Source of the DNA: Anniella stebbinsi
Lineage: Eukaryota; Chordata; Lepidosauria; Squamata; Anniellidae
DNA length: 64,000 nt
Direction of reading: 5' to 3'
NCBI GenBank assembly: GCA_029215795.1
Contig: JARDYH010000007.1
Coordinates: forward strand, 18,387,763 to 18,451,762
Every line of letters starts with the position of its first letter. The stretch's first letter is position 1. The notes beneath the pieces were generated by a model. The model ran no database searches and was not told where the DNA came from. It worked only from the letters and a program-made list of their open reading frames with translations. The translations under genes and the position numbers were made by a program. This document shows positions 12,170 through 57,494 of the stretch, piece after piece.

Positions 12170-12232
12170 ATGGCCAAACACCACCGCACCCCGGCGCGCA
12201 GCCCGGAGCCCGTCATCGAGGTCAAGAGCAAG
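12170..12232 (+). CDS. PARD6A: PARD6A coding exon 1
   Basis: It encodes 21 residues, [18 protein letters not shown] then KSK, and ends exactly before GTGAGC in phase 0. The human protein starts similarly (RTPARSP, then EVKSK). The final basic residues open the PB1 domain. The start codon lies in a GCAGCATGG context. Confidence 0.95.
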
Positions 12233-15200
12233 GTGAGCGCGCCGCCCCCCCCCCCCGGTGGTCTACATTGGGGAGGGGGCGGCGAGGGTCCGCGGCCGCT
12301 CCTGCCCAGGCGGCGCTGCAGCCCGCCCGACTCGGCGCTGCTTTTGCAGACTCACCGAGGGAAGAGGCGCCTGGCGCGCTCCGCTCCGGCCCAGGTCACG
12401 CCGGCGGCGCTCGCCCTGCTGGGGGCAGCCTTGATCCGCCTTTGCAGCAGGTGCACCAGGCGGCGGGCGCCACCTCCGTCCCTCCCTCCCCGGCTGCCTC
12501 CCCGGCTGGGCTTTCGGTTCCCACCGCGTCTCCACTGGCTTCGAGCTGGCGCGCAACGACGCATCGCCCCCCGCCGTCTTTCTGTTGTCCCGGGCGTCTG
12601 CTGTGTGTCTCGCCCGGCCTAGTGGATGGCGGCGGCGGCGGGCGATTGTTTGCGCCCCCCTCCCTTCCTCGGCAGTGCGGAGAGTGTCAGCCGAGAGGAT
12701 TACCTTGCTCCGCTCTGGAGGGATTTCTGCCTGCCGTGGCTTGGCACTCCGTGTGTGTGTGTGCGTCTATTATGCCCTCTTCCCCCCGGGAAGGCACCAG
12801 GCTCCCCCGCGGCGCGCGTGGTTATGCAATGGTGCAGCCAGGGCCGGGCTCCGGTGGCTGCTCAGCATCGGGGCCTGCGAAGGATCTCGCGCGGATCTCT
12901 CCGTCGGGAAATGTACCGAGGCATCCAGCGGCAAACCCCGCTCGGCAGGGATGGGAGGTGGGGACGTTTGCCTAGTCAATAAGGGATGTGGTTCTGCCGT
13001 CTGGAGGTTGATTCGCATGCCTTTGGGAGCATAATCGACAAGGGAGGGGGGGTCCCTTATTGTGTAACATCCCCGCTCCAAAATGATATTTCTTTGTTTA
13101 AATAAAAAGAAAAGCAATAGGGAAGCAGGAGACAGGTTGATTTCCCTTCCAACTCCGGACTGGTCCTGGTGGAATTCTACAGCTGATGGAGAGCAGCTCT
13201 CCCTTGAGAGTAAACTTACTTGACCTCTGGCAAGGGGCACAGTTTTTCCCACAGGGAACTGGGATAGGACCCCAGGCTGGCCGGCATTTCTGGAGCATCC
13301 CCTAACTTCATTTCAGGTGGGGTGGAGAGACCGCTGCTCAGTGGAAGAGCATGGAGAAGGCCCTGGCTTCGAACCACGGCTGCTCCAGTTAAAAACGACG
13401 AAGTAGTGGATGATGGAAAGGCCGTAGACCAGACTCCCAATGGTCAGGGAGCATGGAAGTTGTAGTCATCCCAGACATCTGGAGAGCACTAGGTTAGGGA
13501 AGGCTGGCTTAGATACTGGAGAGATTGTCTAGCTCAGTAGTATCTGTTCTGACTCTTACAAAAATTATCACATGGTATAAAAAGCTTCCCGGGTTCTTCC
13601 ATGTATGAAGGTTAGCTTTAATCTTCCATCTCTGTTTGTTTGTGCTAATTTACAGCCCGCCTGTAAATAAATCCTTCCAAGCCAGTGTACAAGTTAAAAT
13701 CAAAATGCAATAATTAAATACCACAATTAAATTGCTATGCCATAATTAAATCACAATAAGACCATATCAAGACATAAAAACTCATCAAGACTCATCCTAC
13801 AGGGCAGATGGCGGTAGATGAACCCTATGGTGGGGCAGAAGCATCCTCTTTCAAGGGGAGATATTATTTCTCCCCATTTGGGGCGGGGGCACATCAGAAA
13901 TGGATTTAGAGCAGCTTCTTGGTTGTGAAAACTCCAGAAGGGCCCTCTGGTGCGCCTCTGGAATGAGTTTTAGATCCAGATCCTGCAAGGCAGCCTTCCC
14001 CATCTAGCCACCTCCAGATGTATTGGGGTGCAACTCCCAGTATGCCACCAGTTGCTGGGAAATACAGGTGGGAGGGTGCTGATGCATTCATGTCCTGCTT
14101 GTGGTTCCCTGTTCAACAGCTGGTTGGCCACTGTGTGAACAGAATGCAGGACTAGATGGACCCTTGGTCTGATCCAGCATGGTTTTATGTTCAGTTCCTT
14201 CATCACAGGTGAGCAAGAAATAGTAGAAGGGGTGCTTTCTTATGTTGGGCTCCATCCCGATAGTTGTGTGTGTAAGCTTTTGAGCTGCACAGAGTTCTTC
14301 AGGTAAAGTGGAAAGTATGCTGAATCAAGGTAGAACAAGACAGGTTTCTGCTGCAGATGATTTAATCAGATAGTGGCTGCCTAGTCACAACTTAGCTTTG
14401 CCAGAACTTAGTGATGTTACTTAGCAGTTGTAGCAATTCCGGAACTCCAAGATCGTATTTAATACTTTGTCCTTCATCCTCAATAATGTTAGACATCTTA
14501 ACTTCCTGACATATTGTTCGGGACGCTGCTCAGTTGTTTTTCTTTCAAGACAAGGACTGAATGCGCAATCCTATGCAGGTTTAGACAGAAAAAAGGCCTA
14601 CAACTCCCAGCATTCCGCAGCCAGCAATGTTGACTGGGGGATGCTGGGAGTTCTAGGTCTTTTTTTTCTGTCTAAACCAGCATGCCACCCTGAGTGTTCT
14701 TGTGACTGTTCATTTGGGGAGACCTATTGACCAATCAAAGTGGAGTCCAGAGTCCTCAACTGCCTTTAAAGGTTGTTCTGCTTCTTCTTAAGGCACCGTC
14801 TCCTATCAGAGGTTAGTTATCATTACAGCTAATTTTGCTTTTGATGCCGTTGCTCTAAATAATTGTATAGAAGTACAGCTATACCGTTCCCTCAGTTTCT
14901 TTAACAATGATGTTCATCCTCTTCCCATCAATCTTTTCCCTTCATTTTCCCCTTGTATAATAAGTTGGAGCGTGGTGTGTTTTTCTCCTCTGATAATATA
15001 CCAAGATATTGTCATTTTCTTCTTTTGATGGTATTTATTAATTCCGTTTGTTGGTTCAGCCTATGTAGTACATCCTCATTTGTTACTCGGTCAGTCACGA
15101 TATCTTCAACATGCGTCGGCGAATCCATATTTCGGAAGATTTGATTTTCCCGAAATTGTTCTTAGGTGTCCAAGATTCCACTCCATAAAGGTTGTTGCGA

Positions 15201-18200
15201 AGTAGCAAAACTTTGCTTGGCTGTGTTAGCAGTTTTACGCTTTATCTTTTCACCCTCTCCTGCTCTTGTACAGTTTGACGCTGAGTTCCGCCGCTTTGCC
15301 ATGAAGCGCTCCAGCGTCGGCGGCTTCCAGGAATTCTACCAGCTGATCCAGAGGGTCCATCAGATCCCCTGCTTGGATGTTCTGCTTGGCTATACGGACG
15401 TCCATGGTGACTTGCTGCCCATCAACAATGATGACAACTACCACAAGGCCCTGTCGTCTGCCAATCCTCTGCTCCGAATCATCATCCAGAAGCGAGGTAA
15501 GGGAGTGCCCGGGGGTCTAGCAGTGCATCCATTCATCTCATAAGCCCAGCTTATTTATTTATTTACCTGCCATTCATTGAAGGAGCTCAGGACAGTGTAG
15601 AGCAGAAACAGGCATATGGTAGATCTTTGGGTAGTTTGCCCAGGCAGCTATTTTTGAGACCTTTTTTTGTCACAGGAGAGCAAGAAATAACAGTACATGT
15701 GCTTTCTTATGTGGGGTTCAATCCTGATAGTTGTGTGTGTAAGCTTTTGAGTTACACAGAACTCTTCATCAGGCAGAATGGAAAGATGGGCAAAGGTTAC
15801 TGACTCCCAGTAGGTTCGCAATAGCAAATAAATTGCAAGTAAAGCATTCCCAGCTTTGTGAAGCTCTGCTAGGCACTTTGAAATTGAAATGAAAAATGTA
15901 AAGAAACATGGTTCACTATTTTAAACAGTTATTTCCTAGGCCTCATGAGCCTTTTAATAGAAACGTCCAAGGAGGTCAATCAGCTTAATGTACAAGTGAA
16001 ACATACTAAAGAGGGGGGAGCGGGAAACTAGTTTAGAAGAGCAAAAATGTGTGGATTAGAAAGACTGGATACGGAACTACCAAAGCAATATTGAGAATGC
16101 AAAGATTCCAAATTTCAGAAATTCCAGGGAGATATTCGGGATTATGGGGAAACTAAGATATATAATTGGTGCAAACCTAACAGGGCTACACATGTCGGAA
16201 AATCCGTTTCCTTCAATAGAACTACAGATACCTGCAATGAAGAAGGGGAAACTGATGGGGTTGATTGGAACTCCACTGATGGCTCCTTGCCAGCATCCTC
16301 TACCTCCAGGTCAGAGAGATCTTTTTTTTAACATCAAACCAAGGGAGGGGTATGGGAAAAGAGACAGACCTGCAGAAAATAGAACAACATTCAACAGGAA
16401 AATCCTAAAAAACCTCCAACAGTAGTGAATTGATCCCATAGGATTCTAAGTGGAGGTGGACTTAAGGAACTCTAGAAAGGAGTCGCCTCTGTCCCTACTC
16501 TTAAACATAATTCTTTCACATTACTGGTAAGACTTCCAACAACTTTTCAGGAAAAGACTTGCAGATTTTGGGCCAATTTAGAGCTAGATTTCAAGTCCCT
16601 GATCTAGTTCCGCCTTCACCCAACCAGACTGGGAATTGTTGGACTGCAGTTCCCACCAGTTCCTAATTGAAATGAATGGGACTTAAGTGAATCATGACTA
16701 ACTTAAATCCCATTCGTTTCAATGGGTCTACTCTAAATTGGATTTATGTCAGATTTTATCCATTGATTAAAAATATTTTGATGGACTAAACTAGTGCCCC
16801 TGATTAAGATGTTGCTTTTAATAATTACTGCATTCTTTAGTAATATAAATATTCCAGACGGTATGCACCATCTTAGAAGATGTATTCTATCTAGTGTGAG
16901 AGAGGAGGAGGAAAGTCTTTTCGGAGGTTATGACTGCTGCAATAGATGTATCCATAATCCAAAACAATGTATTGTAGCACATCTGGAGTGAACATGCGAT
17001 CCCAGTTTGTTACCTGGTTTGCAGAATTGCCAGTGTGCTTAACGTGTATATAATGTGTATATAGTTCTCCTCTGCACACACACACCCATTTTACCCTCAC
17101 AACAGTCCTGTGAGGTTGGATAGGCGGAAATTTAAGTGACACCCAGTGAACTTTCTACTTGCAGAGGAGTTTGAACCCGGGCTTCCTTGATCCTCCAAAT
17201 ATTTTGGACTATGGCTCCCATCATTCCTTACCATTGGCAGTGCTAGCTGGGTTTGACGGGAGTTGCAGTCCAACCAATCTGGAGACGTTTTCTCTAACCA
17301 CCACATCTCACTGGCTGGCTGCTAAAAGCTCCTACTTGCAGGGTCAAGAATACCAGGAGACGAGCTGGATATATTCTGTGCTAAAATTCCAGATTCTGCA
17401 AATGTATTTAACATGAATTATATATATCGCATCAGTTGGGACAGCAAGGAACTAAAACAGAGCAACAAAGCTCTACTCCAATCAGTCCTGCGTGTAAAAT
17501 TTTATTCATTTTTGCCTGTTCGTATTTAAGCTTATCTTTGTAGGCAAACGTGACTAGTAGCTTGATTTTCAAAGGCACATGATGCAGCAAATCAGTCTCG
17601 GTTTGGTCAGTGTCTGGATGGGAAACTACCTAGAAACCCCACGTATACAGCTGCCTTGAGTTCCGTGTTGGATACAAGGTGGGGTATAAAATGCAGTAAA
17701 CTAAACAAAGGGCCCCATGTTTAGGTGCTGAATTCTGTGCCATGTCAGAGCGCAGGGGCCCTGGCAGGTGCCCAACGATGTCAGGTGTTGGAGCCGGCCA
17801 TGCCAGCGAAGGCTGCTCGGCTAGGTGGCAGAGGGAAGCTGTACATTTCCCCCGTCTCCTGCCCGTTCCTCTGCAATGTGGCTTGAGTCTTGGCCTTCCT
17901 AGCCACACAGAAGCTGAGTGGATAGATGCTGGTTCTCTCTGGCCCCGGCTTTTTAATCCTCCTCATACTCTCTGCCTGCTCAGAAGCAGAAGCCGCCACT
18001 CACCTTCGCCTCACCCTCCAAGCAGTGGAGTTTTCTGCACTGGGTTGACTACTAGAGGGCTGTCAGATGGGCAGTGGTGACCATGGCCAGGAGGCAGGGA
18101 GACCCCCACCCTGGGGAGGGAGGTTCACTGAGGGCATCTTGCCCAAGGTTCCTTCAGGACCTGGAGCCGGCCCCGCTGGGCCCAGCTGCTGGAGGGGGGT

Positions 18201-21200
18201 GGGTGGAGAAAGACTTCCCACCGTCTTGCACGACTGCCCTAAGCTAAAAATAAGCTGCTGTGCTAAAAACACAGCGTGATATTTATAACTTAGGAACTCT
18301 TGTCTGACAAGCTCTGTAGAATGAGGGGTGTGCTACTTAAGCCCCGTGACCTGCCGAAACCTCCCTGGCTTCCCCTTGGAAAAGTTTCTGTTACTGTGTA
18401 ATCTTCCCCAACCTGGTGTCCTCCAGATGTGTTAGACTGCGATGATGGGAGTTGCAATGCAACACATCTGGAGGGCACCAGGTTGGGGAAGGCTGAACAA
18501 CAGGTTCTGCTAAGCAAGTGTGGGTCCATTTAGCATGCTGATAAACAGCACACGGCCGGTCACCTATGGCAAGCAAAGATCTCCAGGCAACCAGGCAGGG
18601 TGAAATTATAAACGGGGACAAATTATAAATGGGGACAGTGTTGGTTGTTTATTTTCAGTCTCTCAGACTGACTCAAATGACTAACAGCCTATCTACACTA
18701 CTGCTTTAAAACGGTTTAAAACGGTTTATAACAGTTTTGAGAACTGTTGGGGCCCAGGACACACTCCATATACCGTTTTCAAAACATTTTCAAAATGTTT
18801 TATCCTGCGTGTGTGGATAGGCTCTAAGAAAGCAAGGGGGCTTATAAAAAAATGTTGAGGCCAGGGCTGGCTTCTTCTGCAGGCTTAACTTTGCATGGTT
18901 GTTTGGACCGGATTGTAAAATGGGACACGCCTCCCCGGGGCGTCTTGTGTAGGTGTTCCAAGACTCTGTTTAGCATTGTCGTCTGGGCTTCCTGTGGTTT
19001 CTTTTTTAAAAAAAAATATGGGTTCAGATCCTATTTGCTCCCAGCTCTTGTTACGGCAGTTGTGCCAGAACTCAGCCTCCAACCTGTTCCGACTTGACAC
19101 ATCTTGCTGCTTCATGTCCATCTCACAGCTTGTCGCAAGCATCTCTGGCCTCTTCAGGGGACCGGGTGAATCATCCACCCTGCAAACACGTCATGGGAGA
19201 CGTGTTTGCGGCCAGCCAGAAAGCGAGAGATTTGTGATTCTTGGACAGGCATTGAATAGGAACATAGGAATACTGACTCAAATGACCCTTGATTTATCAT
19301 CTACCCTGTTACTGTCAATAGTGGCCCTGTCGAGGCAATACACTAAACCATGATGGTTACGCGTTTTGAGCTAAACATGATGGCTTAGTGTGTCATGTGA
19401 ACCATTCCTAACCGTTGGGGGGGGGGAACTGCACAAAAGCCAAGAAACTGGCAAACCATCGGTAATTGGGGGGAAGGTGTGGAGCTAGGGGAAAAGGCGT
19501 AGTCTTCTGGAGAATCCCAGAGGGCCGGATTGACCCCTGGACGTTCTTCACCCCTGCTTTTAGATACCAGAAGACTCCTTGTTGTTAATGCAGAAATAGT
19601 TAGCTCTCAACCAGGTCATGATTGCAGTGATTAAAGGGAAGGTTTCTCTCCTCCTTCTTCTGCCCAATTGTTACATCTATTTTTATTGGGTTCACTATTT
19701 GGGGTTGCCAATTTTCAATAATAATCCCTAGTAAAAAAAATTTGCTGCCTTCTGTCTTGCTCTGATTCTATGTGTGCTACTCTGCCTAAATACTAATCAA
19801 CACTTTAGATTAACGTACATTTAATTCAATCAGCATATGGAATTGGGGGGGTGGGGATAAGAAGGTGCCTCCCTCTACCTTCCCCCAGTCTGGCAGAATT
19901 GGCGGACTAAATGTTTGTATTGGCGTGTTTTGAGCCGTGGTTATTCCTGACAAATGCCTCCGGGATTCACATGCATCTGTCTCCACTTCCTCCATTGGAT
20001 CTAGAGGATGTTGAGGGTACTGGCAATTGTGGGAGAGGAGGGTGCCTCAGTCGGTTCTGTTTTTTTGCTGCATGAACACTTGCCGCTATTGAGTTAAGTC
20101 TGCAGGGCGCAGCTCAAAGTGTGATTAAGACTGAATTATTCATATCCCTTTTAATCTCAGCCTGGCATACAATGTGTAATCCCGCTGGGTCGCACAGCAC
20201 TGGCAGGTACCACACAGCCAGGCATGGGGTCAGGATCTGACCTGGATAGAGAAGGGTGGGAAGGGGGAGCAGAATGAGGCCGGCCCAGCAAAATGGAGTC
20301 CTAATCTCTGGTGTGAAGTCCAGAATCCAACCACACACAGCTGTGGCCTGTTTGTGCTATGCTGCCAGTGCAGAAACAGGCAAGTAAAATGATCAGGGGG
20401 CTGGAGTATCTCCCCTATGAAGGAAGGATGCAATGGCTAAGATTGTTTAGTTTGGGGGGAAAGGAGGCTAAGGGGAGACTTGATAGAGGTGTACAAAATT
20501 AGGCATGATGTGGATAGGAAGATATTTTTCTCCCTCTCTCATAATACTGGAACCTGGGGTCATTCCATGAAGCTGATTGGTAGGAAATTTAGGACAGATA
20601 AAAGGAAGTAGGTCTCCACACAGTGCATAGCCAATCTACGGAATTCACAACCACAAGATGTAGCGATGGCCATCAAAATTTGGATAGCTTTAAAAGGGGG
20701 TTAGACAAATTCCTGGAGGAGAAAGCTATTAGTCCCAATGGTTATATGTTACCTCCAGTGTCTGAGGCACTAAGCCTATGTACAACAGTTGCCGGGGAAC
20801 ATGGGTGGGAGGGTGCTGTTGCACTCGGGTCCTGTTTGTGGGTTTCCTGTGGGCAGCTGGTTGGCTGCTGTGCGAACACAATGCTGGACTAGATGGACCC
20901 TTGGTCTGATCCAGCAGGGCTCTTCTTATGTCCAAATGGAATCCATAGCATCTTGCCACCTTGGGGGTTCCTATAGGGCTGGAAAGGTGGGATCAAACCG
21001 CTTTAGCAAATAAGTGACATATTGTGGCTGGGCCGACATCAAAAGTAGGCATGGTTGGGACCTTGCCGAGGGGCCACACCCCAGCCAGGGTCCCACTGAC
21101 AAGACCCCCTGGAGTTGCTCCTCCTCTTCACTGTTGCAAGCAGCTTGTTCAGCTGCCTCTCGCCTTAGCCCAGAGAGCAGTGGTGGTGAGGAGGAGCAGG

Positions 21201-22356
21201 TGCCAATGCCTACTTGCTCGCCAGCTCTCTGCCTGACTAGCAAGCAAGCGGTGGCAATGATGACGAAGAGGAAGAGGCGGAGGAGGAGCAATAGCAGCTG
21301 GTCACGAAGGTGGTGAGAAAGTAGGCTCCCAGAGGGAGTGAGGGAGTGAGCCCATTGAGTGTCATGCCCACGGGCCCTCCGACACCTGGAGCCAGCCCTG
21401 GTGTTAGGAACCTTGGCGAGAGCACCGGGTGTTGGAAGGCCAGAAGGGGAGACAAAGAGGCAGATCCAGGGGATGCTGACAGCTAGGGAGAAAGGGTTGG
21501 GTGGGAGTAGAGTATGCCCGTCCACCTGCCTGATGGGTCCTTGCTTTCATGCTTCCTTGCAGCAGAAGCCGACATCAGCGTCTTTGCCTCCAACTCCCTG
21601 CAGCGGAAGAAAAAGGGCCTCTTGCGCCCGGTGCACCAGCGGACCAAGCCCCACCTGCTGATCGGCATGCCCCAGGACTTCCGACAGATCTCCTCCATCA
21701 TTGACGTGGACATTCTGCCCGAGACCCACCGCCGGGTGCGCTTGCACAAGCACGGCTCAAGCAAGCCACTGGGCTTCTACATCCGAGACGGGGTCAGCGT
21801 GCGCGTGGCCCCCCAAGGGGTCGAGAAGGTGCCCGGCATCTTCATCTCCCGCTTGGTCAAGGGGGGGCTGGCTGAGAGCACGGGGCTGCTGGCCGTGAAC
21901 GATGAGATCTTGGAGGTCAACGGCATCGACGTGGCAGGCAAGTCGTTGGACCAGGTCACGGACATGATGGTGGCCAACAGCCACAACCTCATCATCACCG
22001 TCAAGCCGGCCAACCAGCGCAACAACGTCATCCGCAGCAGCAAGGCCTCGGGCAGCTCCGGAGTGTCTACGGACAGCACCCCCAGCCAGCAGACGCCCAG
22101 CCCGGCTTCCCAGTATCTGAGCAACTGCAGCACGGCGGAGGGTGAGAGCGACGAAGAGGGCGACCTGGTGATTGAGAGTGATTTGCCAGCCAGTTGCCCC
22201 AACGGGGGTCTCCTAGAAAGCCTGCAGCACAGCCTGTCCCTGTACAGCTCTCAGGGCTCTCTGCCCTCCCTGAACAGTCACAGCGGCAGTGGCAGCCCGA
22301 TCCGGGGCAGCCGAGCGGGGAGCCTCCGAGAGGACGGCACGGTCATCACGCTATAG
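12170..22356 (+). CDS. PARD6A: PARD6A, par-6 family cell polarity regulator alpha (3 coding exons)
   Basis: This is the scaffold subunit of the PAR3-PAR6-aPKC polarity complex, acting at the apical or junctional cortex downstream of CDC42. Coding exons are 12170-12232, 15274-15496 and 21563-22356, joined in phase to 359 aa (human, as I recall it, 346). Residues about 14-95 form the PB1 domain that pairs with atypical PKC. Residues about 134-155 ([16 protein letters not shown] onward) are the semi-CRIB that binds CDC42-GTP. Residues about 156-250 are the PDZ domain, with PLGFYIRDG as carboxylate-binding region and GLAESTGL following. The C-terminus is Ser-rich. The PDZ sequence and the exon-2 motif LDVLLGYTD make this PAR6 alpha. 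Introns of 3.0 and 6.1 kb are filled with repeats, much longer than I recall in human. Confidence 0.97.
13325..13420 (+). mobile_element. tRNA-derived SINE remnant
   Basis: It has an A-box-like 'gctcagtggaagagcatgg', a B-box-like 'ggcttcgaaccacgg', and 'ctccagttaaaaa' as in the second SINE type at 32838-33000. It lies in PARD6A intron 1. A family B half-MITE follows at 13433-13507. Confidence 0.45.
13990..14197 (+). mobile_element. Half MITE joined to a CR1-like tail
   Basis: 13990-14045 is the left arm of foldback family B ('cctccagatgtattggggtg', 'caactcccag'). It passes without a gap into a CR1-like tail with 'gttgctgggaaatacagg', 'gctggttggccactgtgtga' and 'actagatggacccttggtct'. Confidence 0.6.
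14205..14330. repeat. Dispersed repeat, copy 1 in PARD6A intron 1
   Basis: It shares 'gagcaagaaata', 'gctttcttatgt', 'atagttgtgtgtgtaagctt' and 'cacagagttcttcaggtaaa' with 15672-15790, in the same orientation. I could not assign it to a named family. Confidence 0.55.
14561..14684. mobile_element. Foldback MITE, family A, copy 2
   Basis: The left arm has 'atgcaggtttagacagaaaa' and 'cctacaactcccagcattcc'; the right arm is 'gggggatgctgggagttct' and 'ctgtctaaaccagcat'. It lies in PARD6A intron 1. Confidence 0.8.
15274..15496 (+). CDS. PARD6A: PARD6A coding exon 2 (PB1 domain)
   Basis: The acceptor TTGTACAG at 15266-15273 and the donor G|GTAAGG after 15496 frame 223 bases in phase 0 to 1. The exon encodes [18 protein letters not shown], then [17 protein letters not shown] and [13 protein letters not shown], the core of the PB1 fold of PAR6. 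The last G forms a split codon with exon 3. Confidence 0.96.
15672..15790. repeat. Dispersed repeat, copy 2 in PARD6A intron 2
   Basis: It is similar to 14205-14330: 'gagagcaagaaataacag', 'gctttcttatgtggggttca', 'gatagttgtgtgtgtaagct' and 'cacagaactcttcatcagg'. The two copies flank PARD6A exon 2. Confidence 0.55.
16648..16750. mobile_element. Small palindromic element (CCCATT...AATGGG)
   Basis: 'tgaaatgaatgggacttaag' and 'atgactaacttaaatcccat' with 'cgtttcaatgggtctactct' are inverted copies. Related words occur at 1875-1945, 9040-9130, 38490-38570 and 40197-40262, so this is a dispersed repeat. Confidence 0.5.
17083..17316 (-). mobile_element. tRNA-derived SINE split by a MITE
   Basis: 17083-17188 and 17288-17316 are the body and head of the antisense SINE ('cctcacaacagtcctgtgag', 'ggagtttgaacccgg', then 'ctctaaccaccacatctcac'). 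Between them, 17189-17287 is a family B foldback MITE ('cctccaaatattttggacta' ... 'gttgcagtccaaccaatctg'). The MITE therefore inserted into the SINE. Confidence 0.65.
18403..18494. mobile_element. Foldback MITE, family B (short loop)
   Basis: The left arm 'cttccccaacctggtgtcct' with 'ccagatgtgttagactgc' is mirrored by 'caacacatctggagggcacc' and 'aggttggggaagg'. The middle is deleted compared with the other copies, which gives a compact hairpin of about 90 bases. Confidence 0.85.
18685..18828. mobile_element. Foldback MITE, family D
   Basis: Terminal 'agcctatctacactactgct' is mirrored by 'gtgtgtggataggctct'; internal 'taaaacggtttaaaacggtt' pairs with 'accgttttcaaaacatttt'. A related longer copy is at 60082-60316 (ends 'ctagatctacact' and 'gtgtagatccagccc'). 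Confidence 0.7.
20368..20937 (+). mobile_element. CR1-like LINE, longest copy in the window
   Basis: It begins with the end of the reverse-transcriptase region and 3' UTR ('ctggagtatctcccctatga', 'aaggggagacttgatagagg') and continues through 'ttccatgaagctgattggta' and 'acaaattcctggaggagaaa' to the tail 'actagatggacccttggtct', 'gatccagcagggctcttctt'. It lies in PARD6A intron 2. The reading frames are broken, so it is inactive. Confidence 0.85.
21563..22356 (+). CDS. PARD6A: PARD6A coding exon 3 (semi-CRIB, PDZ, C-terminus)
   Basis: The acceptor is a tandem CAGCAG at 21560-21565. Use of the first AG gives the junction QKR-AEAD, as in human isoform 1; the second AG would drop one alanine (QKR-EAD). 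The exon encodes [14 protein letters not shown], the semi-CRIB and the complete PDZ domain, then a Ser-rich tail that ends DGTVITL and TAG at 22354-22356. GC content is much higher than in the introns. Confidence 0.97.
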
Positions 22357-41709: not shown

Positions 41710-41826
41710 ATGACTAGTTCTACAAAGAGCCCCAATGAGAAGAAATCTGGAGGGAAGACTGCACCTGCTCACTTCCTGTTCCAGCTGGCTGCAGCCTTGG
41801 ACAACCCAACCATCAAGTCGCTGGAG
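41710..41826 (+). CDS. C16orf86: C16orf86 coding exon 1 (start of HSF-like domain)
   Basis: ATG at 41710 is preceded by an acceptor-like 'tttccctctctgaag', so the exon may begin at 41707 with an untranslated exon further upstream. It encodes MTSSTKSPNEKKSGGK, then FLFQLAAALDNPTIKSLE, and ends at donor GAG|GTAAAG in phase 0. If the exon extends upstream instead, the open frame would add 25 residues from 41635. Confidence 0.82.
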
Positions 41827-44800
41827 GTAAAGGATTAACCACTGTTTATGCGAAAAAGTATGTGAATACACTCAGTGCAGGATACTGCAGCAGGTATGGG
41901 AAGAAAGTAGATCTCCAGATGTTTTGGACTTCAACACCCAGCATTCCCCACCATTGGCCATGCTAGCAGTGGCTTCTGGGAACTGGAGAAAGAAAATGGA
42001 GGGAACCAGGTTGGGGAAGGCTGGTCTACTGACAGTGAGAACAATCCATGCTGGAAAGTGTGCTCCAGAGCAGGGCTGGGGAGAAGGTAGATCTCCAGAT
42101 GTTTTGGACTTCCCCTCAAAGAAACCCCTGCTAGCATGGCCAATCAAGAATGCTGGGAGTTGAAGTCCAAAATATCTTGAGATCTACCTTCTACCCTCGC
42201 CTCCTCTGGAGGCAGTGGAAGGGTGTTAGACAGAGCCTGCCACAGTTTTGTCTCTCTGTGGCCCCAACTACATGTTATGATAAAAGTGTGGTCTGATTGG
42301 ATTAGTTTGTTTGGATTTGTTTGCATGTTGGTTAAATAGCCCAGTCAGAGTCAGGATCAGGACTGCTTGTTAGGGTTTAACCCTTCCCCTGCCATATTGC
42401 GATCCTGATGAAAACCACTCTCCTCCATTCTCTTTCTTTCACTTTCACCCCCCCCCCCCCCTGCTGTTTGCTGCAGAAAGGTAGTCACTTCCTCTTGGGA
42501 GCAGAAAGCTTAGAGCAGAAACTCTCTGGTGATGCCTCCTTGCTAGCCTTCTCCAAAATTTGTTCCAGGACCCAGGATGATTCATTTCCAGCTCACCCTT
42601 AGACAGCCATGACCTGAAAGCATTCCCTGGCCCTGTGAAACTTCCATGAAGTGACAAACGTCACGGGCTGTTGGCTCAACATAAATTCAAACACAAGACC
42701 TGCACCTTTCCTTCTGTAGTGATCATGCAACTTAGTCTTTGTTCTTCCCATTGGCCTCTTGCACTGAGTAACCGTGTATGTGTTCCCACAGTGGCACGAA
42801 GATGGGAAGGGCATTCTCCTCCGCACCAAGCTATATGAAGAAGAGATCCAGAGGCATCAAGAACTGTTTCCAGAACTCAAGAATCTGAAATCAGTTTCTG
42901 TGCTCCAGGCCTGGCTGGCAACCTATGGCTTTAAAGCAAGAATGACAAAGTAGGTCATCATGAAGTGATTTCTGTATCTGCCCCACAGCACAGATGTACA
43001 GCACATGGGAAAGGGAAGGGGGTCCTGTTCTTGGCATCAAATAAAAAAATATATTAAAGATAACAGATAGCAGTTCTGGTAGAAACCTCTGTCCAAGGCA
43101 TTGGAGAGCCACTGCCTGATAGGATCACTGGTCTATGACTCGCTGTAAGAGTTTAACGAAGAGATGTTCAAAATGCTGCATTGTGAACATATTGTTGAGG
43201 TTCCAGCACTAATAACATAACCTGACAATGCAAGGAAAACAGAATGAGGGTGCTGCAGTATGGGGAAACAGTGGCAGTAGCTCCCACAGCCATTCCTTCT
43301 GATTCTACTCATCGTTTTTCCTCTGTAGGAGTACAGTAGTAGACTGAGTGGCACACACACCACGCTCCCTAAGCTAGCCTGCTGCCTTAGGTGCAAGTGG
43401 AGGATGCTGCCCTATTGGTATTGCCAGTGCTGAAAATTCAATTGCCAGTCTAGTTGGCTTCTGTACATGGAATTGGGCAGGATGGTGGTGCTACCTTGTC
43501 CTTCATTGCAGGCAGCAAAATGTCTTGGACAGGCCCTTGCTCCTACTGGCAGTGAACTGATGACCTAAGAGCTTCAAGACTGAAAAAGGCTGGTGGCCGC
43601 ATGAATAGAGAGCTGCTCTTCCCAGAGGGATTTCATTGCAGCACATGACTTTTACCTGCAGACAGAGTGTTTGACAGGAAAAACAGAGGAAGGCTGTCAG
43701 GACTTAACAAACCATAGAATTATAGAATAGTAGAGTTGGCAGGAGCTTATAAGGTCATCAAGTCCAACCCCCTGCTCAGTGCAGGAATAGGGCCTAAGGT
43801 CTCCAATGGATCATGGGAGGCTCACTGGAACCACATCTGCTCTCCCTTCTTTCTTCTCATTCCTTGTTATTATTTGTTATTATTATTTATTGCATTTCTC
43901 TACCGCCCCATAGCTAAAGCTCTCTGGGCAGTTTGCAAAGATTTAAAAAAAACATTAAAAATTACATTATACATGAAAACATATAAACAGAGAGCACACA
44001 CAGACACAACGTATATCTAAATTTAATTTGAAACAATTTCGTTTTAAGATCTTGATCCCAATGTCTTGTTTCTATCCCACGGGACTGAATCCAACATGCT
44101 CACTTTCCCTCACAGAACCGACACTGACATGCTTGCTTTCCAGCATGCAGGCTTCAAGAAACTCCCTCCCAGGGCAGAGGAGGCAGAGGGTCCCAAAGCG
44201 GAAGTGTCACTCATGCCAAAACAGTCCAAGAAATCCAAGAAAAGGAAAAACACCCTGGATATCACAACGATCCCATCCGCCAACCCAGGGGGATCCTTGC
44301 CTCCAGAGTCTGCAGGTGTAGAGAGTGAGTCCACAAAGAAATGGATGCAGTTACAAGCCAGGTCTCCCTCAGCAGACGGAGGTCTGGGAGGTGGGGCTGA
44401 TGGCTTGGCTGTGCCAGGAATACTAATATTTCAGTGTATTGCTATCTGGGGCAGGGATTTCTGACTGGTAGAAGACAAAAGAATTCTACTACTTTCCACA
44501 GTGAGGATTTGGAGATAAAGATAGCAGTCACTTATGAGTTGTATCTTATGAAGATGGTGCAACCGTTCAAGCACCAGAAAGTCAAGCAGGATAGATGCTT
44601 CTAGCCTTCAGCCATGTGACTGAAAACCATCTCTAATTCCCAGCACTTTCTTTGTGCGCTTCTTCAGAAAGTGTACAAACAGGTACTAAAACCAGGCAGT
44701 TGCCGTTGCTTGAACTACCAATGGCTTTCTCTCAAACACTTTTCGACATGGGGGAATTGGGTGTTCTGGAGATTAGCTCTTCATCAAGCGGTATAAACAG

Positions 44801-45639
44801 AATGCAATGATGTGACCTTTCATGGCTCACTGTCTGCTGAAGTAGCTATTAAGAGAAGCCAGGTGTAGCAGGGCAGACAATCTTACCTAGGGAACGGGGT
44901 AGGCTGTAGCTAAGGTATAATTTAAAATGGTACTGTAATTCCCATCTCACCAACACCCCTCTACATCTTAGAAGCAACCTGCCCTCCAAAGTTCATTTCA
45001 TCTTATTATTTCTAGGAAAGTCCCAGCGCCTGCGTCCTTTATACCAATACATCAACTACGACAACCCAGAGATGAACATCCCATCAGACAAGGAATGTGA
45101 TCTGCTCCAGCTGGAGGCTCCTTCTACTCTAGAGAACAAGACAGGCCCCTTAGAACTGAGAATTATTGCACCCATAGGTAACAAGCTGGGAACTAAGAGG
45201 GAGGTATACATGCTCCTTCCTCCAAATCCAACATAATGAAGGTTGGAATAATAAATTGGGCAGAACTTGGTGCTTTGCAGGACCAATGAGAAATGAGATG
45301 AACTGTTCTTGGTGTGGTGTCAACGCTCCCTTCTCACTTTTTAGTTATAGGTTGCTGAGTGCAAATAGGCAAGTGCATGGTAGAGCTGAGAAAGCCACTG
45401 GTCACCTAGCATCACCTTTCCACAGCCACTCCAGAGACAGGATAATGGTTCATACCGTCCCTTTTTTCTCTGTTGCAGTTGCAGAAGACAAAGGCAAAGA
45501 ACTGAGAGGTTTAACAAGCACCACTTCAGGAGCTGTAGCAAAAGCAGAGGTTGACAAGTCTACTCAGGTGGACATCGACAAGATGCTCAGTGTCTGTGCA
45601 GCTCATCTAGTTCCACCACTTTCACCACAGCCCAAGTAG
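41710..45639 (+). CDS. C16orf86: C16orf86 orthologue with an N-terminal HSF-type winged-helix domain (5 coding exons)
   Basis: Coding exons are 41710-41826, 42792-42949, 44116-44324, 45016-45177 and 45479-45639, all GT-AG and in phase, giving 268 aa. The C-terminal half is clearly C16orf86: ERKSQRLRPLYQYINYDNPE and KAEVDKSTQVDIDKMLSVC with LVPPLSPQPK at the end. A basic cluster KQSKKSKKRK lies near residue 120. Residues about 20-107 (exons 1-3) look like a heat-shock-factor DNA-binding domain: FLFQLAAALDNP, EWHEDGKGILL, LATYGFKA and AFQHAGF align with FLTKLWTLVSDP, CWSPSGNSF, LNMYGFRK and EFQHPCF of HSF1. The recognition-helix arginine of HSFs is alanine here. I do not recall this domain in human C16orf86. 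Function is unknown; a nuclear role is inferred. Confidence 0.9.
41893..42024. mobile_element. Foldback MITE, family B
   Basis: The left arm has 'tagatctccagatgttttgg' and 'acttcaacacccagcattcc'; the right arm is damaged and ends 'gggaaccaggttggggaagg'. It lies in C16orf86 intron 1, 50 bases from a second copy. Confidence 0.65.
42071..42205. mobile_element. Foldback MITE, family B
   Basis: The left arm 'tagatctccagatgttttgg' is mirrored by 'gttgaagtccaaaatatctt' and 'gagatctaccttctaccct'. It shares the variant ends with the copy at 41893-42024. Confidence 0.7.
42792..42949 (+). CDS. C16orf86: C16orf86 coding exon 2 (HSF-like core)
   Basis: The acceptor is 'gttcccacag' and the donor AA|GTAGGT. 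The exon encodes WHEDGKGILLRTKLYEEEIQ, then FPELKNLKSVSVLQAW and LATYGFKARMT. In a hand alignment this covers strands 2-3 and helices 2-3 of the HSF fold. The pattern S-x(6)-L-x-x-YGF is kept, but the HSF arginine is alanine at residue 79. Confidence 0.9.
43714..43800 (-). mobile_element. CR1 LINE tail (antisense)
   Basis: It contains 'catagaattatagaatagta' and 'gagttggcaggagcttataa', 'tcatcaagtccaaccccctg', the reverse of the tail at 2884-2963. Confidence 0.8.
43858..43945 (-). mobile_element. L2-like LINE tail (antisense)
   Basis: It contains 'gcatttctctaccgccccat' and 'agctaaagctctctgggcag', as at 37738-37810. It lies in C16orf86 intron 2. Confidence 0.55.
44116..44324 (+). CDS. C16orf86: C16orf86 coding exon 3 (end of HSF-like domain, basic linker)
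   Basis: The acceptor is 'actttccctcacag' and the donor GAGA|GTGAGT. The exon encodes TDTDMLAFQHAGFKKLPPRA, then MPKQSKKSKKRKNTLD. DTDMLAFQHAGF corresponds to the last strand of the HSF domain; KKSKKRK matches KKAKKRK of human C16orf86. One exon thus links both parts of the protein, which argues against two separate genes. Confidence 0.9.
45016..45177 (+). CDS. C16orf86: C16orf86 coding exon 4
   Basis: The acceptor is 'ttatttctag' and the donor ATAG|GTAACA. The exon encodes KSQRLRPLYQYINYDNPEMN, almost the same as human KAQRLRPLYQYVNYCNPELN, then an acidic stretch. Confidence 0.95.
45479..45639 (+). CDS. C16orf86: C16orf86 last coding exon
   Basis: The acceptor is 'tctctgttgcag'. The exon encodes VAEDKGKELRGLTSTTSG, then the most conserved block AEVDKSTQVDIDKMLSVC and the end LVPPLSPQPK with TAG at 45637-45639. 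Confidence 0.96.
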
Positions 45640-50102: not shown

Positions 50103-51001
50103 TTATAGGTTATTTCTCTGTAGTGCCTCACAGAGGTTTTGATTGGCATCTGGCTCCTCGGTCATTACCTCCACAGTTTCCCAATCCCCAGACCTGCTGG
50201 ATTTTTTAATAGCATCTACTACACTTTGCATATAAAGGCCGTCTTCAAAAGAAGCTGCCATTGCAACTGGCTCAGGATTCCAGGTGCGCTGGTCTTCCTG
50301 GTCCTGGAAAGAGTGACGTAATGCTTGCACCTGGTATACCATCCCTTTGAGGTACAAAAGGGGTATGTCTTTGAATCCTTTTTCCAAAAGCCCTGCATGG
50401 ACATTCAGAGAATCTGCAAACAGGAGCTCTTCCTGGGGAGCAGTGTTCTTCTGGCCGTATAAATCCGTCCCACGTGCTATAAGGCGTCCAGATGACCCAA
50501 CAATCATGACCTCGTGGACAAATGACCCAGGCATGTTAAAGTTCAAAGTTACTGTGCTACAGATGCCTCCTGTCATCAGCATCTGGAAAAAGCAAAAGTC
50601 ATCACTGGTGACGTGGCGGATGCCACTGATGGCAGAGTTTTGCTTCACAAAGGTTTTCAGCAACCCATGGACCTTCTCTGCCTTTCGGCTTGTCAGGTGA
50701 GTGAGGAGATCTATGATGTACGTCCCCATAGAGTGCAACCCACCACCACCCATCAGCTCATCACAGATCCAGTTGTACTTGTGGCTGAGAAGGCTACCCC
50801 AGTACACTCGCACGTCACAGACCAGCACGTTGCCCACATAGTGCTCTTCTATCAATTCCTTCATTTTGATGAAAGCTGGTAGAAACCGCAGGACGTTGCC
50901 TACAAGGCTCATGAGTTTGGGGTAATATCTGGCAGCTGTGACCATCCTGAAAGCATCCACAGAAGTAGCAGCTTTCTCGCATATTACATTCTTTCCGATA
51001 C
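50103..51001 (-). CDS. GFOD2: GFOD2 last coding exon
   Basis: The acceptor 'cgttttttgcag' precedes 51001. The exon encodes [20 protein letters not shown] to the C-terminus [12 protein letters not shown], with the stop at 50105-50103. It is one open frame of 298 codons, with no damage. Confidence 0.98.
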
Positions 51002-53045
51002 CTGCAAAAAACGGACAGCATTTTAATTAGATTGATAATCATCATCAATCTATACAGCATCACTGTGCATAATGTTTTACAGAATAGATCCCTGCCTTAA
51101 AAAGTTAAATTTCAACAGAGATGGGAGAGGCAAAAGTAACAAGGGATCAAATAAAAGTGGGCGTTTCCAGTGAAAATGGGACACAGGAGACTGGATTTAC
51201 TTGGGGAAACAAGATAGCTAAAACCTTCCAGGAGAATATTGCACCTTTAAATCAAACACCCAGTAGCAAAAACTGGACCCCTAGCCCTACATTAAGTCTC
51301 TTGTTTCCATTTTGCATTCTGCCACCCACCTTATTTTTTCTGCACACAAATATGACCATGGTCTTCTGCGTCTCCTTTTTTCATTCAATTAAGACTGAAT
51401 ACACTTCAGGATAAGTAGCATTCTCCAACCTGTGCTTATCTTTCATCTCTGATTTCTTTATATTCTTCTTGCAAGTCTTTGCATACTTCTGGTTCTTAAC
51501 TGCTTGTTCAATCTTGCATCTCTTTAGCACTCTGGCTGTACCAGTTCAGCAAGAAGCCAATATATTATCAACTGTCTCTAGTAATTCTTCAATGACAAGT
51601 TTAATAGTCATGCTGCTTTTATCATTTATAAGTTATAGCAATAGGGAGGATTGGCAACACCGTGTGAAACCATCAACACTTCATTTCTGCAGGACGTCCA
51701 GGCTTGTCCTCTCTTCCCCCACCCAAGGAGTAAATACCATGATGTGATCTTTGCAGACACCCAGTGGTCATACTGGTGTATTTTATTATGTCCTTCAGGG
51801 GCTTTGGGAATGTGAGAACTAAATTTAGGGCAAAAACCTATGCATGTTTAAACAAAAAAGACTTTTAACTCCCAGTATTCCCCAGCCAACCATGCTAGCT
51901 GAGGAATGCTGGGAGTTGTAGGAATATTTTCAGTCTAAACGTGTGTAGGATTGCGCCCTTAATCACAAATCTAGTAAGAGTCCCCCCTCTAACCTCTATA
52001 AAAACAATTTTTGGAGGGCTTCTATCCTGCACCAACTTTCCTCAAAGAAGAATGAAAACTCTGTTCAATAGATACTTTCACCTTCCTGCTTTGTGTGTAC
52101 TGTGCTCCTGGAACATGCAAACCCTTGCCATACTAATATATAAAGGGAAATATGCACACAGACTGTGTGCTCTTTCAAGAAATATTTAACTGAAACTTCC
52201 TTTGCTATGTTGTATAGCAAAGAAATAGGATAATAGGTAATACACAAATCAGCAAACATCAAAAGCTTCTTTACAATATCTTTCTCCTTCCATCAGACCC
52301 TACAAATAAACACGTTTTGGGATCAGTGGAAGTAGGTGTGGTAGCACTAACTTTGGCTAGCTGACAAAAGTCAAGGGATCATTTTTTCTTCCCTTTCTTC
52401 CCCCCAGGTATTTTTGTTCATTATGTGATATGTTGCTAGGCAAATCCCCCCTCAGAAAAACAAACCTATAAAAATAAATAAACCAGTAACAGGAGAATAG
52501 TAGTCTACAGTACAACATTTGTCACTCCCCAAGCAGTGTACTGACACAATAACCTACAACAGGGCAGAACAGGCATCACTCTATGTTAAGCAACCTGACA
52601 TGATCCTCAAGTCAAACTTTTAATTTTGTTGGTTTCCACAGCTACAAACATATTACTCCAAAATGAAGCATTTAATTTTACTCTGTCAATTATTAAGTAA
52701 CAGCCATCATCATTCAGTTGGGATCTACTCAGGAGGAAGTGAATTTTAAATAACAGCCAGAACTTGCAACAGCAAGAACACAGTACCTAGAGCTTTCACA
52801 GCAATTTGTCGCGTTAGTGGTGGGGGAATATTGATGCAAACCAAATCAACATCCTGGTGCAGCAAGACATCATCTGTCCGACTTGTGTAGAAGGAAATGT
52901 TCATTTCCTCAGCTAGTTGCTTTGCTTCCTCTTCAGTCTTCCCCCAGAGTGCCTCGATGGAGAAGCCTTCTGCTCTTAGCAGAGGTACTAACACCCGAGC
53001 TGAGCTCCCAGTCCCAAACACCCCCACGCCAGGAAGCATTTTCAT
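50103..53045 (-). CDS. GFOD2: GFOD2, Gfo/Idh/MocA-like oxidoreductase domain-containing protein 2
   Basis: GFOD2 belongs to the glucose-fructose oxidoreductase family; the mammalian protein is reported as secreted and linked to matrix assembly, and no substrate is established. Coding exons 53045-52787 and 51001-50103 join in phase to 385 aa, the human length. Residues 1-120 form the NAD(P)-binding Rossmann fold ([19 protein letters not shown], then [13 protein letters not shown]). [14 protein letters not shown] carries the EK of the family's EKP motif, with alanine for proline. The rest is the alpha/beta C-terminal domain ([33 protein letters not shown]). The end [18 protein letters not shown] and EKAATS (I recall DRTATP in GFOD1) identify GFOD2. 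The 5' intron carries the 3.2-kb palindrome. Confidence 0.98.
51828..51958. mobile_element. Foldback MITE, family A, copy 3
   Basis: The left arm 'cctatgcatgtttaaacaaa' and 'taactcccagtattccccag' is mirrored by 'gaggaatgctgggagttgta' and 'agtctaaacgtgtgtaggat'. It lies in the GFOD2 intron between the coding exons. Confidence 0.8.
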
Positions 53046-53132
53046 TTTGTGTTCTTTTCACAATTTAACTCTGGACAGTGACACTCAGACATAAAAAGCA
53101 AGCTCCTCAGCATATTGTTTCATCCACAGTTC
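52787..53132 (-). CDS. GFOD2: GFOD2 first coding exon, with 5' UTR part
   Basis: ATG at 53045-53043 opens [20 protein letters not shown]; the exon ends CTAG|GTACTG at 52787. A strong minus-strand acceptor 'ttttttctgttttag' lies just beyond 53132, so 53132-53046 is probably 5' UTR spliced from a distant first exon. Coding is 53045-52787, 259 bases, ending in phase 1. The N-terminus is hydrophobic enough to act as a signal peptide, as annotated for human GFOD2. Confidence 0.95.
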
Positions 53133-54310
53133 CTAAAACAGAAAAAATAATGAATGAGCAAAAACGTACCTGTTACATGCACAGCATAAGTCACTAACAG
53201 TTCATACTCAACACACGTTCAATGCAAGGTTGGTTATTCAACATCCAATTTGGATTAAACTACTCATTTTAAGAATTCTTCCCTATTCTTCAACTTCTTA
53301 ATTTTAATCCTACACATATTTAATATAGTATGCCTGACCTACTAAAAACATCTATTGCTACTTTCAAAGGAAATCCAAACATGTCTTTATAGTTGAAACA
53401 TGTCCTTAAGATACCTTTCTCTTTAGTCTCTGCAGGTAAATTCACTCTTTCAAATATAGAACATTTAAACAGTATCTCAGCTAGCTTAGTATAGCATTTC
53501 TAAGATGCATAGATGTATAATAGCTTGAAGATGCAGAAATAAGTACTAAGGGATCAAGCTGGTGGCTGAAGAACTCATTGCTGATGGGCCATATATAGAC
53601 TGCAACAAATTAACAGTAGTTTCCCATTTTATCTAAACAGAAACTGTGGTTAGCAGCTTTGGAACAATCCAGGCTATGAAGACAGCTTTGTACCATGGCT
53701 TCATATCCTGGCTTATTTCGAAGCAATAAGCAAAACAAAGCAAACTTATTTACTTATGACCATTACTTATTATTGTTAGAAGCAAGAAGATATTAAACTG
53801 CTCCACAAAGTTACAAGCAAAATTAGACAGATGTGGATCCTTCCATAAAACTTCTTACTAATCTATTCAGTTTAGATTAAAGAGAAAGATTTATAAAAAC
53901 CCTACATGTATTATTTTGTACCACAGCCATACAAGGAAATAGACAAAGGACAATCATGTGCAGAACATAAGCCTCCAAGGGAGGCTCTCTTGTTCATAGT
54001 GTCTACAAGCATTAAAAGCCAAGCTGATGCCGGCAAGAAACTTAAATTTCCAAGGATAGTTTAAAAACAATAATTCAAATTATAGTTCAGCCAATACCAA
54101 ATTTCCCCAGTAAAGGAGATCATAAGTATGAAAAGCATATCACACTCTGCAGAGTATTGCTGGTTAGGATAATACCACCAACACCCTGTCTACAGAGAGC
54201 TTCAGCTATTGTGCAGTATAGAAATAAAATAAATAAAATAAATAAAAATATTGTGAGCCCACATTCTTCAAGGTGGCACCTTCTCACTTATTCGTCCTCC
54301 CTCTCCATTG

Positions 54311-54318
54311 AATTTTAT
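54311..54318. repeat. Left 8-bp target duplication of the palindromic element
   Basis: AATTTTAT stands directly before TAGGGATGTGCA and again at 57487-57494, directly after the mirrored end TGCACACCCCTA. Confidence 0.85.
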
Positions 54319-54499
54319 TAGGGATGTGCACTGACCCCCCGGATCGGATCGGATAGCGGATCGGAATCGGACCTGGGGGGTCGGATCGGATCGGATCGGA
54401 TCGGAGGCTGGTCGGATCGGATCGGACCAGATGTCCGATCCGGATCGGACGCCATTTTGAATGCTTTTTCCCATAGCCAAGTATTGTTTTACAAAAACG

Positions 54500-55560
54500 C
54501 CTATAACTTTTTCATTTTTAAAGATAGAAGGATGAAACTTGGGGACATTGTAGACTGGTTAGGGATAGTTATCTGTGAGAAATTTCAGAAAGATTGGTGC
54601 ATGCGTTTTGTGGCAATTAATTTTTTAATAAATACCCAGGAATGCTTATAACTTTGTCATTTTTAAAGTTACAAACATGAAACTTTGCCACATTGTAGGA
54701 GGTACCTTGGGACCTATGTGTGTGAAATTTCAGAAACATAGGTGCTTGCCTTGTGTGGCAATTAATTTTAGAAAAATAGGTAGTAGTGGGGTAAATACAG
54801 TTACGCCTCCCATTTTTTTATTTTTTAAGATACAAACAGGAAACTTGGGCACATTACAGGTACCACTTGCCTTGATATGTGAGTGAAATTTCAGAAACAT
54901 TGGAGCTTTCCTTGTGTGGCAATTAATTTTTGAAACAATGAGGAAAGAAACACCTATAACTTTGTCATTTTTAAAGTTACACACATGAAACTTTGCCACA
55001 TTGTAGGTGGTACCTTGGGACCCATGTGTATGAAATTTCGGAAACGTAGGTGCTTGCCTTGTGTGGCAATTAATTTTTTAATAAATACCCAGGAATGCCT
55101 ATAACTTTGTCATTTGTAAAGTTACACACATGAAACTTTGCCACATTGTAGGTGGTACCTTGGGACCTATGTGTGTGAAATTTCAAAAACGTAGGTGCTT
55201 GCCTTGTATGGCAATTAATTTTAGAAAAATGGGTAGTAGTGGGGTAAATACAGTTACGCCTCCCATTTTTTTATTTTTTAAGATACAAACAGGAAACATG
55301 GGCACATTACAGGGAACACTTCACTTGATAGGTGTGTAAAATTTCAGACAGCTGGGTCCAGGCATGTGGTGGCAATTAATTTTTGAAACAATGAGGAAAG
55401 AAACGCCTATAACTTTTTTATTTTAAAAGTTAGAAGTCTGAACATTGCTCACTTTGTAGATGGGTTAGGGGTAGATATGTGTCAGAAATTTCAGAATGAT
55501 AGGTCCAGGCATTTGATGGCTATGGAATTTTTAAATTACATGTTTCAAAAAAATTTCTAC
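54500..55560. repeat. Tandem ~150-bp units in the left arm
   Basis: Units begin near 54501, 54649, 54953, 55097 and 55404 with 'cctataactttgtcattttt' or a variant. Most continue through 'aaactttgccacattgtagg', 'gtgaaatttcagaaac' and 'tgtggcaattaatttt'. Variant units near 54800 and 55256 start 'acgcctcccatttttttatt'. The right arm carries the same units in reverse order and strand. Confidence 0.8.
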
Positions 55561-56560: not shown

Positions 56561-57486
56561 AAATTAATTGCCACACCAGGCAAGCACCAATGTTTCTGAA
56601 ATTTTACACACATATCAAGTGAAGTGTTCCCTGTAATGTGCCCAAGTTTCCTGTTTGTATCTTCAAAACTAAAAAAATGGGAGGCGTAACTGTATTTACC
56701 CCACTACTACCCATTTTTCTAAAATTAATTGCCACACAAGGCAAGCACCTATGTTTCTGAAATTTTACACACATAGGTCCCAAGGTACCACCTACAATGT
56801 GGCAAAGTTTCATGTGTGTAACTTTAAAAATGACAAAGTTATAGGTGTTTCTTTCCTCATTGTTTCAAAACTTAATTGCCACACAAGGCAAGCTCCAATG
56901 TTTCTGAAATTTCACTCACATATCAAGGCAAGTGGTATCTGTAATGTGCCCAAGTTTCCTGTTTGTATCTTAAAAAATAAAAAAATGGGAGGCGTAACTG
57001 TATTTACCCCACTACTACCCATTTTTCTAAAATTAATTGCCACACAAGGCAAGCACCTATGTTTCTGAAATTTCACACACATAGGTCCCAAGGTACCTCC
57101 TACAATGTGGCAAAGTTTCATGTTTGTAACTTTAAAAATGACAAAGTTATAAGCATTCCTGGGTATTTATTAAAAAATTAATTGCCACAAAACGCATGCA
57201 CCAATCTTTCTGAAATTTCTCACAGATAACTATCCCTAACCAGTCTACAATGTCCCCAAGTTTCATCCTTCTATCTTTAAAAATGAAAAAGTTATAGGCG
57301 TTTTTGTAAAACAATACTTGGCTATGGGAAAAAGCATTCAAAATGGCGTCCGATCCGGATCGGACCTCATCGGATCGGATCGGATCGGATTGGAGGTTGG
57401 TCGGATCGGATCGGATCGGATTTTCCCGATTTTGGGTCGGATCGGATTCGGATCGTGGATCGGATCCGATCCGATGCACACCCCTA

Positions 57487-57494
57487 AATTTTAT
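57487..57494. repeat. Right 8-bp target duplication
   Basis: AATTTTAT directly follows the mirrored terminus CCCCTA and is identical to 54311-54318. Confidence 0.85.

Follow-up and report, generated by a model that had tools for sequence, protein, structure and literature searches.

The C16orf86 locus

The window, by which we mean the whole stretch of 64,000 nucleotides analysed here (Anniella stebbinsi, contig JARDYH010000007.1, positions 18,387,763 to 18,451,762), contains an orthologue of C16orf86, situated between a PARD6A-like and a GFOD2-like gene. The orthologue has five exons on the plus strand (41710-45639), which form one frame of 268 residues with one terminal stop. The features are as follows.

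12170..22353, plus strand: PARD6A-like gene, the upstream neighbour (start at about 12.2 kb by eye; end approximate)
41710..41826, plus strand: exon 1, residues 1-39; N-terminal tail, and the first helix of the HSF-type domain (from the GT donor, frame, orthologues and Varanus model)
42792..42949, plus strand: exon 2, residues 40-92; strands 1-2, helix 2, recognition helix 3 and start of the wing (from frame, model and alignment)
44116..44324, plus strand: exon 3, residues 92-162; remainder of the wing (AFQHAGFKK), with the linker and basic cluster (from frame, model and alignment)
45016..45177, plus strand: exon 4, residues 162-216; contains the conserved RLRPLYQYINYDNPEM segment
45479..45639, plus strand: exon 5, residues 216-268 and stop; conserved C-terminus
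50106..53057, minus strand: GFOD2-like gene, the downstream neighbour (GFO_IDH_MocA domain matches; ends approximate)

All four introns are GT-AG, with phases 0, 2, 1 and 1, and the segment E/WHEDG straddles the junction of exons 1 and 2 (here and below, a slash marks an intron). A preliminary description of this DNA had reported a C16orf86 orthologue with the elements FLFQLAAALDNP, EWHEDGKGILL, LATYGFKA, AFQHAGF and KKSKKRK, followed by the conserved C16orf86 C-terminus and joined by the splice phases into one frame. All of these elements are present in that order, the GT-AG introns connect the five exons in a single frame, and both KKSKKRK and the C-terminus are found downstream of the domain in it. 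Orthology is upheld by 85% identity to the Varanus C16orf86 homologue (coverage 95%, E 1.3e-140); identity and coverage are 79% and 100% for Podarcis, and 74% and 100% for Anolis.

A protein search with the window protein gave 250 proteins at E <= 1. Among the best 120 of these, the top matches are squamate C16orf86 homologues, followed by turtles, amphibians, coelacanth, birds and catshark, and the mammalian proteins match over part of the query only. Many annotated lizard and snake proteins span nearly the whole query, and exons 1 and 2 therefore belong with exons 3-5. Some snake gene models have no exons 1 and 2: those of Liasis (P0024) and two Crotalus (P0029, P0030) begin at or near exon 3. 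The winged helix is missing from these Liasis and rattlesnake models and is found in other snakes. The models lacking it may represent domain-less transcripts, incomplete annotation or real loss.

Within the genome of 1.89 Gb, all five exons were found at this locus only, in a search that scores the best candidates only. A second, partial match is located on the minus strand of another contig (C5, L013:2806-3090) and is 78% identical to window positions 43887-44190. It was considered as a retrocopy and rejected, being a genomic fragment that consists of the end of intron 2 and the first 75 bases of exon 3, within which it ends. Because it carries intron sequence, it gives no proof of splicing.

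The PARD6A-like gene has a PB1 match at 15.2-15.5 kb and a PDZ match at 21.5-22.4 kb. Minus-strand reading frames near 30-32 kb resemble ENKD1, by eye only; two of them were scanned, with no supporting Pfam match. In the skate Rhinoraja longicauda, PARD6A (PB1) and a portion of the C16orf86 domain are fused in one gene model (P0123), suggesting that these genes are adjacent in skates, or read through. Two sets of repeats were also seen. Within intron 1, at 41889-42211, lie repeat pieces, some direct and some inverted, that resemble one another at 73-91% identity; copies that are weaker or shorter occur near 17.2, 18.5 and 29.4 kb. The translations of 54271-55077 and 56673-57656 echo each other on opposite strands (KINCHTRQAP..., PVYNVPKFHPS...), and these seem to be repeats in an inverted arrangement.

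The N-terminal domain

The proposal that exons 1-3 encode a winged helix of the heat shock factor (HSF) type is supported by profile comparisons, predicted fold and phylogenetic spread. The expected match to the HSF profile was not obtained with the window protein alone, but was obtained with orthologues from coelacanth, catshark, two rays and gar. The window protein has no match to Pfam HSF_DNA-bind (PF00447) at E <= 10, and its sole HSF match among PDB sequences is weak (HSF5, 8zys, E = 1.6) and is outranked by an unrelated repressor (E = 1). The orthologues from coelacanth (E 1.5e-7), gar and one ray (2.6e-6), catshark (4.2e-6) and a second ray (8.2e-6) all exceed the PF00447 cut-off and cover most of the profile, and it is therefore these basal orthologues that decide the HSF likeness of the domain. 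The frog orthologue falls just under the cut-off (E 2.8e-4, score 21.8). PF00447 was matched at E <= 1 by 17 of 36 orthologues; at this threshold Varanus, turtle, caecilian, two salamanders, a bird and a truncated shark model had no match, and a second bird had none at E <= 0.1.

A profile built from 52 orthologous domains was compared with a profile of the HSF1-5 and HSFY domains of this genome (those of HSF1, HSF3 and HSF4 being partial). The comparison gave a probability of 97.8% (E 1.2e-12) over 85 aligned columns, and the highest probability among 20 column-shuffled controls was 1.0%. Pairwise probabilities were 95.8% for HSF2, 95.6% for HSFY and 89.3% for HSF5, values that do not separate a closest HSF. 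When a profile of 18 full-length orthologues was run against PDB sequences, HSF5 appeared at E 0.086 and HSF2 twice, at 0.25 and 0.27; unrelated U3 proteins scored 0.23 and 0.25, and the result is only suggestive of an HSF relationship.

Structure prediction agrees. The model of the Varanus orthologue, generated from 36 sequences, has an N-terminal winged helix with HSF topology, as had been anticipated. The first 27 PDB matches listed for this model are HSF or Skn7, and IRF and ETS domains come lower in the list; families absent from the list were not counted as evidence. No helices are predicted in the 75 residues behind the domain; helices of at least four residues are absent from 111 to 187, and two short ones follow. 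Neither a coiled-coil trimeriser nor HR-A/B heptad repeats are predicted in the protein. The C-terminal 34 residues had no match to PDB chains at E <= 10. Homology of the domain to HSFs is thus indicated by the basal relatives together with the prediction.

Distribution of the domain and its apparent loss in therians

A search with a profile of 11 orthologues located the domain, in full or in part, in cartilaginous fishes, gar, coelacanth, amphibians, turtles, squamates and birds. Among the named proteins in the match lists (best 120 of 250, 8 of 8, and best 120 of 249), there is no teleost, crocodilian or monotreme. The preliminary description had asked whether mammals lost the domain or the lizard lineage gained it. 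As the domain also occurs in gar, cartilaginous fish, coelacanth and amphibians, a gain in squamates is rejected. With non-mammals down to cartilaginous fish carrying it, the comparison of orthologues favours loss in therian mammals, which is the simplest reading, and the domain goes back to the jawed-vertebrate ancestor.

The mammalian proteins, 83 when counted by listed name (P0061 and P0066 are unnamed), retain the remainder of the sequence. In seven mammalian alignments, the match to the non-mammalian profile begins at 81-83 (marsupials) or at 107-111 (orangutan, armadillo), with E values of 1.5e-45 or better on a one-sequence scale. The marsupial match opens with HGLKRKPVKVEAELQLQHTDLRR, aligned to the wing segment yGFKkkvakadaevlvfQHadFkk. 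A remnant was sought in 19 of the 83 proteins, leaving out the truncated P0099, one of seven marsupials. With the wing-segment profile, the N-terminal parts of all six marsupial proteins beat every one of 200 shuffles of themselves. The same was true of two of the 13 placental proteins (one of 13 with the whole-domain profile), and a remnant is therefore not claimed for placentals generally. A model of a marsupial protein, generated with 20 therian sequences, has an unfolded N-terminus (mean pLDDT 53). Therians would thus appear to have lost the fold and kept the rest of the protein, the winged helix being replaced in their N-terminal half by other, apparently disordered sequence.

The recognition helix

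The helix that in HSFs occupies the major groove has the following counterpart.

42894..42923, plus strand: VSVLQAWLAT, equivalent of recognition helix 3, residues 74-83 (from model and alignment)

The specificity of HSF1 and HSF2 is reported to be largely due to paired hydrogen bonds from Arg71 (HSF1) or Arg63 (HSF2) to the guanine of GAA, helped by Asn74 or Asn66 (PMC8379338), and the recognition-helix Arg has been termed essential (PMC11059408). Residue 79 of the window protein, an Ala, aligns to HSF1 Arg71, and residue 82, also Ala, to HSF1 Asn74. The joint alignment has 56 rows, among them the window protein and a handful of isoforms from a single gene, and 55 rows have scored columns. 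The Arg column contains 40 Ala, seven Gly, seven Ser, one Thr and one gap, with Arg or Lys in none of 55. The Asn column contains 22 Leu, 13 Cys, 11 Thr, eight Ala, one Val and one gap, with Asn again in none of 55. Both Arg and Asn are present in all six HSFs of this genome. Since Arg is absent from all 55 rows, cartilaginous fish included, base reading either disappeared before cartilaginous and bony fish diverged or was never acquired. With small or mostly apolar residues in place of Arg and Asn, the C16orf86 protein is not expected to read heat shock elements by the known mechanism.

It is conceivable, but we think unlikely, that the altered helix reads a different DNA element and that the protein is a working sequence-specific transcription factor, comparable to HSF5 with its non-canonical site. 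The intact predicted fold, the constraint on the domain and the basic cluster behind it would fit such a role, and binding of a different motif has been reported for the atypical HSF5 (PMC11059408). However, HSF5 keeps SFIRQ with its Arg, whereas the base-facing positions of C16orf86 are A/G/S/T and L/C/T/A/V throughout the 55 rows. The net charge of the domain is -1 to +4 in seven rows, compared with +4 for HSF2 and +7 for HSFY of this genome, which is a weak argument, the HSF stretches being somewhat longer.

The domain is retained despite the missing base-reading residue. Its identity is 0.81 among 18 squamates, compared with 0.48-0.57 for three linkers, and 0.51 among ten wide-ranging species, compared with 0.19-0.23 for the linkers. 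These values, and the intact reading frame and splice sites of the present gene, make it improbable that the winged helix is a decaying, functionless relic in amniotes and that only the C-terminal half matters, even though therians live without the domain and some snake models have no exons 1 and 2. That the HSF likeness is convergent or due to chance, the N-terminus being of ETS, IRF or other winged-helix origin, is hardly credible: the window protein has no significant HSF match by itself, and IRF and ETS do figure in the fold list, but they are outranked there by HSF/Skn7, PF00447 is matched over most of its length in basal orthologues with E values down to 1.5e-7, and the profile comparison stands far above its shuffled controls.

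C-terminal motifs

Three motifs lie behind the domain.

44228..44248, plus strand: KKSKKRK basic cluster, residues 130-136
45039..45059, plus strand: LYQYINY, residues 170-176, conserved from cartilaginous fish to mammals
45553..45573, plus strand: DKSTQVD, residues 241-247, an exact match to the LC8/DYNLL consensus

The basic cluster is probably a nuclear localisation signal; residues 127-137 have a mean identity of 0.94 in 18 squamates. The LC8/DYNLL consensus is given as [D/S]KX[T/V/I]Q[T/V][D/E] (PMC3078936). In its strict form it is found in 37 of 64 non-mammalian rows (the window included, some rows truncated) and in 77 of 83 mammalian rows, and when the window protein was shuffled 20,000 times, it arose in four cases. 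In the Varanus model, DKSTQVD is flanked by a stretch modelled with low confidence on one side and a short predicted helix on the other. The cartilaginous fish seen have NKS[A/S/T]QVSLD, and the birds seen often have DKSMQ followed by V, F, L or A; neither form satisfies the consensus. The gar orthologue (Lepisosteus oculatus, P0139) keeps the HSF-type domain and has neither the KKSKKRK cluster nor the LC8-type motif. The main text of PMC3078936 makes no mention of C16orf86, and its supplementary list of predicted partners may already include the motif. The putative LC8-binding motif could dimerise the C16orf86 protein and, as no heptad repeat is predicted, such pairing could replace trimerisation.

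A hypothesis for C16orf86

Taken together, an HSF-type fold, HSF ancestry, loss in therians and a missing base reader form a description in which we have considerable confidence. Exons 1-3 encode a winged helix homologous to the HSF DNA-binding domain, as the profiles of relatives and the prediction show. At the protein level, the domain was already there in the jawed-vertebrate ancestor and appears to have been lost in therians, with a wing remnant in marsupials. The counterpart of the HSF major-groove helix has neither the Arg nor the Asn that reads nGAAn and would not bind heat shock elements by the known mechanism. More tentatively, the winged helix may touch a protein partner, or DNA without base reading. 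The C-terminal LC8-type motif could pair two chains, and the C-terminal motifs may carry the role that mammals keep. The preliminary description called the protein a divergent HSF-family member. This is right for fold and descent but not for heat shock factor function, given the absence of Arg from all 55 rows and of a predicted coiled-coil trimeriser. C16orf86 is not filed here as a heat shock factor, since a test for the base-reading residue found it missing.

On the basis of the basic cluster, flexible linker, LYQYINY and LC8-type motif, our favoured hypothesis, put forward as a possibility rather than an expectation, is that the protein is a dimeric nuclear adaptor. Equally tentative is the wider proposal that C16orf86 is an unrecognised eighth vertebrate HSF-type lineage, whose winged helix has exchanged base reading for protein binding, in which LC8 pairing replaces the coiled-coil trimer, and in which therians later discarded the domain but kept the C-terminal adaptor.

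No publication linking C16orf86 to HSFs was found in the literature searched, where C16orf86 occurs in no title and rarely in an abstract, and DUF4691, its Pfam family, is mentioned in no paper. In the same literature, "heat shock" and C16orf86 occur together in the available text of goat and sheep genome scans only. C16orf86 is not mentioned in the searched text of two HSF reviews (PMC12366260, PMC13072094). One paper brings up the gene in connection with cancer prognosis (PMC10298883). Automatic annotation is ahead of the papers and already hints at the link: UniRef names a Phrynosoma and one Patagioenas protein "HSF-type DNA-binding domain-...", and five fish proteins come with a precomputed PF00447 match. 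A Nannospalax protein (P0108) carries the mouse gene name 4933405L10Rik, which presumably points to a testis library. The gene of this name is reported to be extremely low expressed in one data set (PMC10186154).

If C16orf86 is indeed an ancient further HSF-type branch, then the family is wider than counted, and one branch of it has been without the base-reading residue since the first jawed vertebrates. Studies of human and mouse cannot see this branch because therians dropped the domain. An uncharacterised human gene would gain an ancestry and two testable parts, the LC8 motif and the LYQYINY segment.

Comparison with HSFs and with therian C16orf86

C16orf86 resembles HSF1-4 in having an HSF-type winged helix that ends in an FQH..F motif, and in profile similarity. 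It differs from them in having no equivalents of Arg71 and Asn74, and in the introns of the domain, which lie at SLE/WHEDG and MTK/TDTD in C16orf86 but at WSQ/NG and at the Tyr of NMYGF in HSF1-4. Shared intron positions were considered as proof of kinship and rejected, as none is shared with the HSF genes compared.

HSF5 and HSFY keep both the base-reading Arg and Asn, whereas C16orf86 has neither, and in this genome they have no intron at either of the C16orf86 domain-intron places. HSF5 has no HR-A/B heptad repeats for trimerisation. A tree places C16orf86 on its own branch, apart from HSF5/HSFY and from HSF1-4 (100/99). A placement next to HSF5/HSFY was not obtained from the tree: C16orf86 forms one side of a long branch, which the program flags for possible long-branch joining. 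The HSFY-like gene of this lizard, so named from a reading of its motif, has most of its DNA-binding domain in an uninterrupted exon (L007:2506-2814, minus strand), with an exon encoding FYHNPNFKRG further along. High-confidence HSFY orthologues are said to have been identified in mammals only (PMC12366260).

The last comparison is with therian C16orf86 (Pfam DUF4691). The window protein scores 21.6 bits against DUF4691, below the cut-off of 27, and 23 of 36 C16orf86 orthologues match it at E <= 1; the model was probably built mainly on mammalian sequences. Therian C16orf86 shares with the lizard protein the basic cluster, the LYQYINY segment, the LC8-type motif and the C-terminus. Its N-terminal half differs and is predicted to be unfolded, with the remnant of the wing kept in six marsupial sequences.
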